Translations under genes and position numbers: made by a program | Assembly: GCA_021372475.1 (NCBI GenBank) | Contig: JAJFUJ010000117.1 | Location: 1 to 61,473, forward strand | Origin: Chloroflexota bacterium | GTDB lineage: Bacteria; Chloroflexota; Anaerolineae; UBA1429 | Reading direction: 5' to 3' | Length of the DNA stretch: 61,473 bases | Notes under the pieces: model-generated | Told to the model about the DNA's origin: nothing | Database searches by the model: none | The model's input: only the letters and a program-made list of their open reading frames with translations | In this document: positions 55,256 to 58,047 of the stretch, one piece after another | Layout: the number at the start of each line of letters is the position of its first letter | How positions within the stretch are numbered: the first letter of the stretch is position 1

Positions 55256-57184
55256 ATGGAAACTCTAACTCTCGCAAAGATACTTAATTTTGGTAATCTA
55301 ATCCTCTCCTCAGCGAACGTCATTATTGGTTTTTCGCTGCTGATTTATATTGTCAGCCATAATTTGCGCAGCTCGGTCGCTCGTGCTTTTTGTGCGTTAA
55401 TTGCCTTTATCAGCGTCATCTATCTCGGAGATGTGTGTCTGGCCGAAGTACAGACGCTTGAATCTGCCAACTTTTGGCTGCGGTTCCAGTGGCTAGGCAT
55501 AGCATTTATCCCGGCCGCCTACATGCATTTTTCGATAGCTATGCTGCGCACGACCGGTGATACATCGCAATGGCGGCGTATTTTCATGTGGGGGGGATAC
55601 GCTGTTGGCCTGGTTACTGTTGGGCTGACTTTCTTTGGCACAAGCCTGGTCGGACCTGCTACGCAAAGCGGTACGCTTTACCACCTGACTGCAGGTAGAT
55701 TGTTCAAGTTATTTGCTTTATACTATTTGCTCGTTACCATCATCGGTTGGATTAACATTTTCCAAGCGCGCAATCGCTGCCTTACCTCGACATCGCGGCG
55801 TAGGATGTCTTATCTGCTGCTCTCGTTTGCAGTACCGAGTATCGGCGTATTTCCCTATCTGCTCATCTCGACAACTACCCGGTCACTTACATCCAATGTA
55901 ATCGAACTAGTCGCGTTGTTTGGTAACCTTGGTGTGGCTCTGGTCACCATCGTTATCGCCTATATTGTCGCTTATCAAGGCGCCATGCTGCCAGACCGGG
56001 TCATCAAGCATGATATGCTACACTACTTGCTACGCGGCCCTTTGGTAGCCATTCTAGTGATCGTCGTGATGCTCGTTGTGCCGCGCGTCGACAACATTCT
56101 AGGTTTGCCACGTGAAGTGGTATTAATCGTAGCCGTCGCCGCGGCGATAGTCATCCTGCAAATAGCCGTAAGCATAGCCAAGCCCGCCATAGACCGAATT
56201 ATATATCGCAAAGATCGGGATGAAATCGCTCTTATTCAGACGCTTGAGATGCGCCTCATTACAAGCACTGACCTCGAGCAGCTTTTAGAGAACTCCTTAA
56301 TCGCTTTGTGCGATTTGTTACGCGTTCCTTCTGGCTTTATCGTCACCATTCAGGATGCCAACTTACGGCTGCGCGTTTATAACGGACCGCGAGAAGTCGC
56401 GGAAGAGTTTGTTACTGCCGCTTCGATACAGCGGTTGTTGGAAGCTGTTCAAAACAGCCGTCCCGAGGAAATCATTGAAAACAGTGATTGGATAACTGCT
56501 GACGGACACTGGCTGCTGCCTCTGCGCAGCCCCGAAACACGCTCGAATCTTGGTATCCTGGGCATCAGCGTTATTGCCGAGCATCCCCAATTCGATCCTG
56601 AGCAACTCGATGCAGCATATGGCCTCGTCAAGAGGCTTGAACTCGCCCTGGAAGATAAAAAGTTGCAAGAGCAGGTTTTCAACGTTCTGCAGCAACTTGA
56701 GGTAGAACTCAACCGCGTTCAGGAATGGCGCTCTTATACAGCCTTTGCTACTCCTGAGCAGCAAGCTGCCACCAGTCCTGAGCATATGCCTGGTTTCGTG
56801 CAAAGTGTCAAGGATGCGCTTGTGCAGCTTTGGGGGGGGCCCAAGTTATCCCAGAGCCCATTGGCCAGCCTGAGTGTTGTACAAACTCGCCTGCCTCAGA
56901 ACGGAAATGTGCCCGCCAAAGCTATTCGTTCTATATTACAAGAAGTAATCGAAAGGCTGCGCCCTGATGGTGAACGCAGTATGACATCGAACGAATGGTT
57001 ATTATACAATATCCTTGACCTGCGTTTTATCCAAGGACAGCGCATTCGGGATGTTGCCCACCGCTTGGCTATGAGCGAATCGGATTTTTACCGTAAACAG
57101 CGTGTGGCTATCGATCAAGTCGCCGAGATGCTTATGAAGATGGAGCAGGCCAGCCTGGATCAGGATAATCAGGAGGAAAAATAA
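55256..57184 (+). CDS. 7TM-GAF membrane sensor with C-terminal helix-turn-helix-like region
   Basis: 642 residues. The N-terminal ~310 residues have about eight membrane helices in the arrangement of the 7TM sensor domain of histidine kinases (SANVIIGFSLLIYIVSHNLRSSVARAFCALI...). A GAF-like domain follows (~320-470: LEQLLENSLIALCDLLRVPSGFIVTI), then a helix (~475-500). There is no kinase or GGDEF domain. The C-terminal ~60 residues, FIQGQRIRDVAHRLAMSESDFYRKQRVAIDQVAEML, look like a helix-turn-helix of the sigma-region-4 kind. It may be a membrane-bound regulator; its ligand is unknown. It overlaps the next gene by one base (TAATG). Confidence 0.7.
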   Translation: METLTLAKILNFGNLILSSANVIIGFSLLIYIVSHNLRSSVARAFCALIAFISVIYLGDVCLAEVQTLESANFWLRFQWLGIAFIPAAYMHFSIAMLRTTGDTSQWRRIFMWGGYAVGLVTVGLTFFGTSLVGPATQSGTLYHLTAGRLFKLFALYYLLVTIIGWINIFQARNRCLTSTSRRRMSYLLLSFAVPSIGVFPYLLISTTTRSLTSNVIELVALFGNLGVALVTIVIAYIVAYQGAMLPDRVIKHDMLHYLLRGPLVAILVIVVMLVVPRVDNILGLPREVVLIVAVAAAIVILQIAVSIAKPAIDRIIYRKDRDEIALIQTLEMRLITSTDLEQLLENSLIALCDLLRVPSGFIVTIQDANLRLRVYNGPREVAEEFVTAASIQRLLEAVQNSRPEEIIENSDWITADGHWLLPLRSPETRSNLGILGISVIAEHPQFDPEQLDAAYGLVKRLELALEDKKLQEQVFNVLQQLEVELNRVQEWRSYTAFATPEQQAATSPEHMPGFVQSVKDALVQLWGGPKLSQSPLASLSVVQTRLPQNGNVPAKAIRSILQEVIERLRPDGERSMTSNEWLLYNILDLRFIQGQRIRDVAHRLAMSESDFYRKQRVAIDQVAEMLMKMEQASLDQDNQEEK

Positions 57185-58047
57185 TGAGCGATAACCATCC
57201 GGCAAATACAAACATGGAGAGCCAACTCATTGAACGTCTGCACAAGATGGTGCACCGCTGGCCAGAGGTGAGCGGCTGCTATCTACAGCCCGAGGCGCAT
57301 GTTGTGGATGGTATCATCCACGGATTAGCGCGAAGCCAGATGATGTTTGGACATTCATACTGCCCTTGACGAGACCTGACGGGCGATCCGGTCCGTGATC
57401 GCGATAATATCTGCCCGTGTGTGTGGCATAAGGACGAAATTCGGGATGATGGACACTGTAAATGTCATCTTTTTGTCGGCCCCAACTATAACCCGGCAAC
57501 CGCTTACATTCCTGATAGAGGTGATGCGCGGCTTGTTGAGGCCCAATCGATTCGCGAGCGCACCGTGACGGTTTATTCCAATAACTGGTGCCCGCACTCG
57601 CGCCGTTCGCGCAGCCTGCTGATGCAGCAGCATATCCCTTTTACGGATGTGAACTTTGAACAAGACCGCGCAGCAGCTCGCCAAGTTGAGATATGGAACA
57701 ACGGCTATCGCTCCTCACCTACCATCATCATCCATATGATTATGACTGAACCGACCGTATCAGAACTGGAGCGTGTGTTTGGCCATAGTGGCGCTCACAT
57801 GCTTGAACTCACGGTACATACAACCTCCTGGTGCCATGGAGGGAGGATAACAGAAGCGTGGTTAAAGCAAAACCATATCGCCTACAAAAGCATTGATATC
57901 GAGCGCGATGCGGAGGCGGCTCGGAAGGTACAGCAATGGAACCGAGGGAATCTATCTGTGCCTACACTTGATATAACCTTGAGGGTAACTGAACCCACGA
58001 GCGATGAGTTGCTCGCAGCCCTCGACCTGATGGAACAGGCATCCTAG
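57184..58047 (+). CDS. Predicted selenoprotein: ferredoxin-thioredoxin reductase beta-like domain fused to two glutaredoxin domains
   Basis: One frame of 287 residues read through an in-frame TGA at 57367-57369 (residue 62). Residues 1-105 form an FTR catalytic-chain-like domain: GHSYCP-U-R, then ICPC (Cys77, Cys79) and GHCKCHLF (Cys92, Cys94). The TGA stands where FTR has the second Cys of the first CPC motif, the active-site cysteine that attacks thioredoxin. Cys60, 77, 79 and 92 would hold the [4Fe-4S] cluster. Two glutaredoxin-like domains follow with WCPHS (Cys136) and WCHGG (Cys217), both single-Cys. AGGAGG precedes the ATG. A hairpin suitable as a bacterial SECIS follows the TGA. The alternative is an inactivating mutation or sequencing error. 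Confidence 0.75.
57367..57403 (+). promoter_or_regulatory. Putative bacterial SECIS element after the in-frame TGA
   Basis: GCGATC (57383-57388) pairs perfectly with GATCGC (57397-57402) around loop CGGTCCGT. The loop starts 20 nt after the TGA and has GG at its second and third positions, which meets the usual bacterial SECIS pattern (apical-loop G, about 16-37 nt from TGA). The loop core GGTC matches that of E. coli fdhF (AGGUCU). Outer pairing near the TGA is weak. Confidence 0.6.

Follow-up and report, generated by a model that had tools for sequence, protein, structure and literature searches.

A predicted selenocysteine-containing ferredoxin-thioredoxin reductase fused to monothiol glutaredoxins in Chloroflexota

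The stretch of DNA analyzed here (the window; 61,473 nucleotides of contig JAJFUJ010000117.1 from a Chloroflexota bacterium, assembly GCA_021372475.1) contains a frame in which a ferredoxin-thioredoxin reductase (FTR) domain is followed by two glutaredoxin (Grx) domains and in which one TGA codon, predicted to encode selenocysteine (Sec, U), interrupts the FTR domain. The locus comprises the following features:

55256..57184, + strand: upstream overlapping gene for a HisKA_7TM membrane protein, the same neighbor that stands before the family's two Cys fusions
57171..57176, + strand: Shine-Dalgarno sequence AGGAGG of the fusion gene, read from the sequence
57184..58047, + strand: predicted Sec-FTR-Grx-Grx fusion gene, 287 codons, Sec at codon 62
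57229..57495, + strand: FTR catalytic (FeThRed_B) domain with predicted ligands C60, C77, C79 and C92 and predicted redox pair U62/C94, from alignment to FTR structures
57367..57369, + strand: in-frame TGA, predicted to encode selenocysteine at residue 62; it aligns with Cys57 in the Synechocystis FTR 1DJ7
57383..57402, + strand: candidate bacterial SECIS hairpin GCGATC[CGGTCCGT]GATCGC, sharing its register with the hairpins of the remaining five Sec copies
57562..57780, + strand: first glutaredoxin domain, monothiol active site C136-P-H-S, from Pfam, alignment and structure matches
57805..58035, + strand: second glutaredoxin domain, mycoredoxin-like, active site C-H-G-G, from Pfam, family models and alignment

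The fusion gene begins at ATG 57184, 7 nt downstream of the AGGAGG, and its start overlaps the stop of the upstream gene as TAATG. Its translation reads MSDNHP...HSYCP, the internal stop, RDLTGDPVRDRDNICPC...GHCKCHLF..., and then the two glutaredoxin domains and the terminal stop. As the original prediction had stated, the TGA at codon 62 is the only internal stop, and the frame runs on past it through the FTR cluster motifs and both glutaredoxin domains; ORF calling, also as anticipated, splits it into a 61-aa piece and a 208-aa piece with a GTG start at 57421. TGA terminates 7 of the 36 long ORFs in the window and is thus a genuine stop elsewhere, so that the code is not reassigned.

The upstream gene (55256-57184) encodes a seven-transmembrane protein whose C-terminus resembles a helix-turn-helix region, and it precedes the fusion in G225 and G245 too; within the window's family, the fusion gene comes after cdsA and this HisKA_7TM gene. 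At the same operon position in a sister genome (G235) lies a tandem glutaredoxin gene (L120) that has no FTR and whose second Grx lacks the active Cys. In another locus (L099:1692-2819, minus strand), two genes run divergently from the Sec-FTR-Grx gene and, judged by sequence inspection, encode a thioredoxin-like lipoprotein and a membrane protein resembling CcdA. Genomic context informs function little.

The read-through protein matched FeThRed_B (Pfam PF02943) over residues 16-104 with 67.5 bits against a cut-off of 22, and the DNA-level match in the genome (62.9 bits) contained one TGA. In an alignment to 1DJ7, residues C60, U62, C77, C79, C92 and C94 correspond to residues 55, 57, 74, 76, 85 and 87, so that the four cluster Cys and two redox positions of an FTR are present in the arrangement CPC/CPC/CxC. 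In FTRs, residues 55, 74, 76 and 85 are the ligands of the [4Fe-4S] cluster and residues 57 and 87 form the redox disulfide, with 57 as the attacking residue. Because the TGA aligns with Cys57, the second Cys of the first CPC, the sole TGA of the gene falls on the catalytic Cys, as had been predicted, which is the residue where Sec would be expected; codon 94 is TGT, making the second redox residue Cys94 and not Sec. A second FTR of the window genome (L001:1480-1875, minus strand, contig C59) is all-Cys and lies beside two individual genes, one encoding a glutaredoxin and the other a Rieske-like protein. Another FTR, from G200 (L060:876-1286, minus strand), has one in-frame TGA in place of the second Cys codon of its third motif (CHU, equivalent to Cys87); its host genome has tRNA-Sec and selA, so that the Sec of single-Sec FTRs apparently can occupy one or the other of the two redox positions.

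Downstream of the FTR domain, Glutaredoxin (PF00462) matched two stretches of the read-through protein (55.1 bits, cut-off 22.9). Both domains are monothiol (CPHS and CHGG), the glutaredoxin CxxC being absent, and in the alignment all Grx domains of the FTR fusions have the N-terminal Cys but no second one, and all retain the WN and cis-Pro regions. The nearest families of the two domains are mycoredoxin (TIGR02200, Mrx1 2LQO) and the YruB-type glutaredoxins (TIGR02196); unlike the curated members of these families, the window domains score below the cut-offs (77.9 bits against 89.5 for TIGR02200; 74.7 bits, under the curated cut-off, for TIGR02196), and their active sites have one Cys each. 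In the AlphaFold model of the protein (pLDDT 83.6, pTM 0.78), residues 13-107 match FTRs (7PWE, Z 10.8; 4TPU, 10.6; 1DJ7, 9.6), and the remainder matches glutaredoxins.

A search for selA, selB, selC and selD, proposed as a check on the original prediction, found all four in the window genome (3.26 Mb, 98% complete, 1% contamination). Because the tRNA-Sec model (RF01852) gave a weak signal in all control genomes, only matches above the 47-bit cut-off were counted; the window genome's tRNA-Sec (selC) scored 70.2 bits with anticodon TCA, and selB (348.1 bits), selA (553.1) and selD (343.8) all exceeded their cut-offs. The selD gene (L116:1438-2520, minus strand) itself has an in-frame TGA, reading LAKAAG-stop-GSKK (AAG-U-GSKK), at the usual Sec position of SelD, and its product is probably a selenoprotein too. 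Among the eight genomes with G handles, seven have tRNA-Sec and selA, both Cys-fusion genomes included, and the eighth has selA only. G120, an 80% complete MAG, has selA without tRNA-Sec, and in G741, the recovered MAG with the Sec copy L100, neither selA nor tRNA-Sec was found; these MAGs are incomplete or unrated.

Relatives were sought with PF02943 in 396 genomes of the class, 56 of which have an FTR; in-frame TGAs occurred, besides the window, in G100, G120, G173 and G200. A scan of genome contigs found nothing with a single-protein query and seven loci with an alignment query; the viral contigs scanned gave none, and plasmids gave only partial, distant matches. In all, eight FTR-Grx fusion genes were identified, and the codon corresponding to 62 is only ever TGA or TGC: TGA in six (the window gene, L054/L101, L055/L102, L056, L075/L099 and L100) and TGC in two (L057/L097 and L058/L098). 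The ordinary FTRs that we read have Cys at this codon. The five other TGA copies belong to families different from the window's and include at least one further class, and that six MAGs independently show TGA argues against sequencing error. Nor is chance a reasonable explanation, because the domain has just two Cys codons with a redox-active role, the lone TGA hits one of them, and it does so in six genomes. Two Grx domains are found in L099 and in the fusions of the window's family, and a single one in the remaining fusions. In the tree, a group made up of the fusions and two long-branch Cys FTRs (L076 and L103) separates from the ordinary FTRs of Chloroflexota (support 96/94), and the window gene lies closest to the two Cys fusions found in its family. 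Sec and Cys may have been exchanged once or twice, the tree fixing neither the number of changes nor the order of gain and loss.

The sequences on both sides of the TGA are under purifying selection, as judged from pN/pS. Within the single-Grx Sec group, the ratio was 0.14-0.25 for residues 1-61, 0.10-0.30 for residues 63-79 (the stretch from the TGA to the internal GTG) and 0.27-0.35 for the first Grx. Against the window gene, residues 63-79 gave 0.12-0.14 and were the most conserved stretch of the protein in all comparisons; overall, the segments upstream of the TGA, between TGA and GTG, and downstream ranged from 0.10 to 0.56 among single-Grx Sec copies and from 0.12 to 0.69 in pairs with the window gene. 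Eight residues between the TGA and the GTG (D68, P69, D72, R73, I76, C77, P78 and C79) are invariant in all copies. This selection, residues 63-79 included, fits a single read-through protein and not a pseudogene or a split gene.

Downstream of the TGA, the other five Sec copies have in common CGATCC[CGTGnn]GGATCG, with the loop 20 nt past the UGA, and the window hairpin stands in the same register. An in-register hairpin of 5-7 bp with a G in the loop was found in all six Sec copies, with 90.5% of cells paired as compared to at most 48% in slid controls. Asp68 and Asp72, whose wobble bases form the central pairs of the hairpin, are both GAT in all six Sec copies and both GAT in neither Cys copy, and L099 and L100 otherwise favor GAC. 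The loop G and the position are consistent with the description of bacterial SECIS elements (PMC1088965). However, the folding check proposed with the original prediction was borne out only in part: a SECIS-type hairpin does lie 3' of the TGA, but in the window gene an overlapping alternative (57379-57396) is more stable in the lowest-energy fold, and the folding energy is not below that of synonymous recodings (fraction as low, 0.17-0.42). Because this comparison failed to single out the window gene, we do not claim a SECIS from energy. Even with E relaxed to 5, Rfam gave no SECIS match here, the hairpin showed zero covariation because its core never varies, and stem length after the CPC codon is unspecific, with stems of at least 6 bp in 7 of 46 Cys FTR controls. 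A SECIS hairpin in the window gene is plausible, with only moderate support. A 7-bp hairpin, GGTGATC[..]GATCGCC, also occurs at nearly the same place in L076 (G537), a Cys FTR that stands alone and carries the GDPxxDR motif; the hairpin may be left over from a Sec ancestor or reflect nothing but codon chance.

Several readings other than a selenoprotein must be considered. Because TGC and TGA differ by one base, all sequences come from draft MAGs and the two nearest family members have TGC, the TGA could be a nonsense mutation or sequencing error in a Cys FTR-Grx gene, which would make the locus a pseudogene or an artefact. However, the TGA shared at the identical codon by MAGs outside the window's family and in part outside its class, the purifying selection on both sides of it and the Sec machinery nearly exclude this reading, and we consider it very improbable. 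Alternatively, the locus could encode two proteins, a short FTR fragment ending at the TGA and a glutaredoxin starting at the internal GTG 57421. Such a GTG does exist, gene callers yield this split, and the tandem glutaredoxin of G235 stands alone at the same operon place; yet the stretch from TGA to GTG has invariant residues and a pN/pS of 0.1-0.3, and the 61-aa piece would lack three of the four cluster ligands although residues 1-61 are conserved. We reject this reading on account of that conservation and judge it improbable, if a shade less so than mutation or error. Lastly, since read-through is required, the UGA could be served by a suppressor tRNA or a recoded one that inserts Trp, Gly or Cys, and UGA recoding occurs in other bacteria. 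TGA is nevertheless in use as a stop in the window, the genome has every sel gene and a tRNA-Sec with anticodon TCA, and Cys is the only alternative residue at this codon among the fusions; on these grounds we rejected recoding, which seems to us the least credible of the three. The window gene is thus very probably a real selenoprotein gene, and the sel machinery, the TGA/TGC homologs and the six TGA MAGs support the prediction of a Sec-containing iron-sulfur disulfide reductase with built-in glutaredoxins.

From the frame, the site, the machinery, the conservation and the fold, we infer selenium incorporation, catalytic activity, an electron donor, an electron path and substrates as follows. 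UGA62 would be decoded as Sec by SelB and tRNA-Sec, aided by the hairpin directly downstream. The FTR domain is predicted to hold a [4Fe-4S] cluster (C60, C77, C79 and C92) next to a selenenylsulfide, U62-C94, which ferredoxin, the likely donor, would reduce by passing two electrons, one at a time, via the cluster. With its selenol exposed, U62 could then attack a mixed disulfide or oxidized thiol on the single active Cys of a Grx, and C94, as the resolving thiol, would free the reduced glutaredoxin. The result would be a ferredoxin-driven monothiol-glutaredoxin system needing neither NADPH nor a separate reductase. We assign a probability of about 0.85 to this explanation as a whole, i.e., one selenoprotein with Sec at UGA62 in which a ferredoxin-driven FTR reduces the attached Grx. 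The Grx as electron acceptor is its weakest link, to which the fusion alone points. More tentatively, the U62 selenol might take the place of glutathione or mycothiol in resolving Grx mixed disulfides, giving cells a means of thiol repair independent of NADPH and small thiols, and the enzyme is possibly co-expressed with the coupled upstream membrane-protein gene.

A different possibility is that the protein is a selenoprotein in which the Grx are docking or cluster-binding domains, and the Sec-FTR reduces free thioredoxins or low-molecular-weight disulfides. Monothiol CxxS/T sites form no internal disulfide for an FTR to reduce, the second Grx of the FTR-less G235 protein has lost its Cys, and the L099 copy adjoins CcdA-like and thioredoxin-like genes. 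Against this, no Grx of the FTR fusions has lost its N-terminal Cys, its WN region or its cis-Pro region, and we regard a docking role as possible but rather unlikely.

If the preferred reading, a Sec-FTR reducing its own Grx, is true, selenium is, in a defined set of Chloroflexota, the atom with which an iron-sulfur disulfide reductase attacks its substrate, and the natural Cys versions at the same operon position in sister species form a matched Sec/Cys pair with which one can ask what selenium contributes to FTR chemistry. Annotation pipelines lose such genes, as the FTR half would appear as a 61-residue fragment.

The original prediction knew of no Sec form of this fusion, a remark that needs partial correction because unfused Sec-FTR had been described, although for the Grx-fused, single-Sec form it seems to stand. 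Sec-FTR was described in 2008 from two GOS metagenome sequences, one of which has two Secs (PMC2398784), appears on later review lists (PMC9312934, PMC13188914) and is modeled by NCBIfam NF041072 ("FtrB family double-selenoprotein"), against which the window protein scored 81.9 bits (cut-off 160). A description of an FTR-Grx selenoprotein was not found in the literature and models searched, a weak negative because most subscription journals lay outside the search. Like NF041072 and the GOS Sec-FTR, the window protein is a catalytic subunit of the FTR type in which Sec takes the second position of the first CPC, but NF041072 is named for two Sec, whereas the window protein has one Sec and two Grx domains. 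Like 7PWE, the crystallized glutaredoxin/ferredoxin disulfide reductase fusion (PDB descriptor) of Desulfotalea psychrophila and the best structural match of the window FTR domain, it joins Grx and FTR in one chain; in 7PWE, however, the FTR part is C-terminal (residues 88-174 of 196) with Cys at the site, whereas in the window protein it is N-terminal, and the group has a Sec/Cys site and one or two C-terminal monothiol Grx. The FTR fold and the six Cys positions in CPC/CPC/CxC are shared with 4TPU (the Methanosarcina acetivorans ferredoxin-dependent disulfide reductase), 1DJ7 and 2PU9, but 4TPU has a rubredoxin part, plant-type FTR (1DJ7, 2PU9) has a separate variable subunit, and none has Sec. 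A single-Sec FTR with one or two monothiol Grx, scattered in Chloroflexota and interchanging with Cys, thus appears undescribed. What is new is the combination only; because Sec-FTR had been reported before, as had the joining of Grx to FTR, we consider the window protein a variant rather than a new class.
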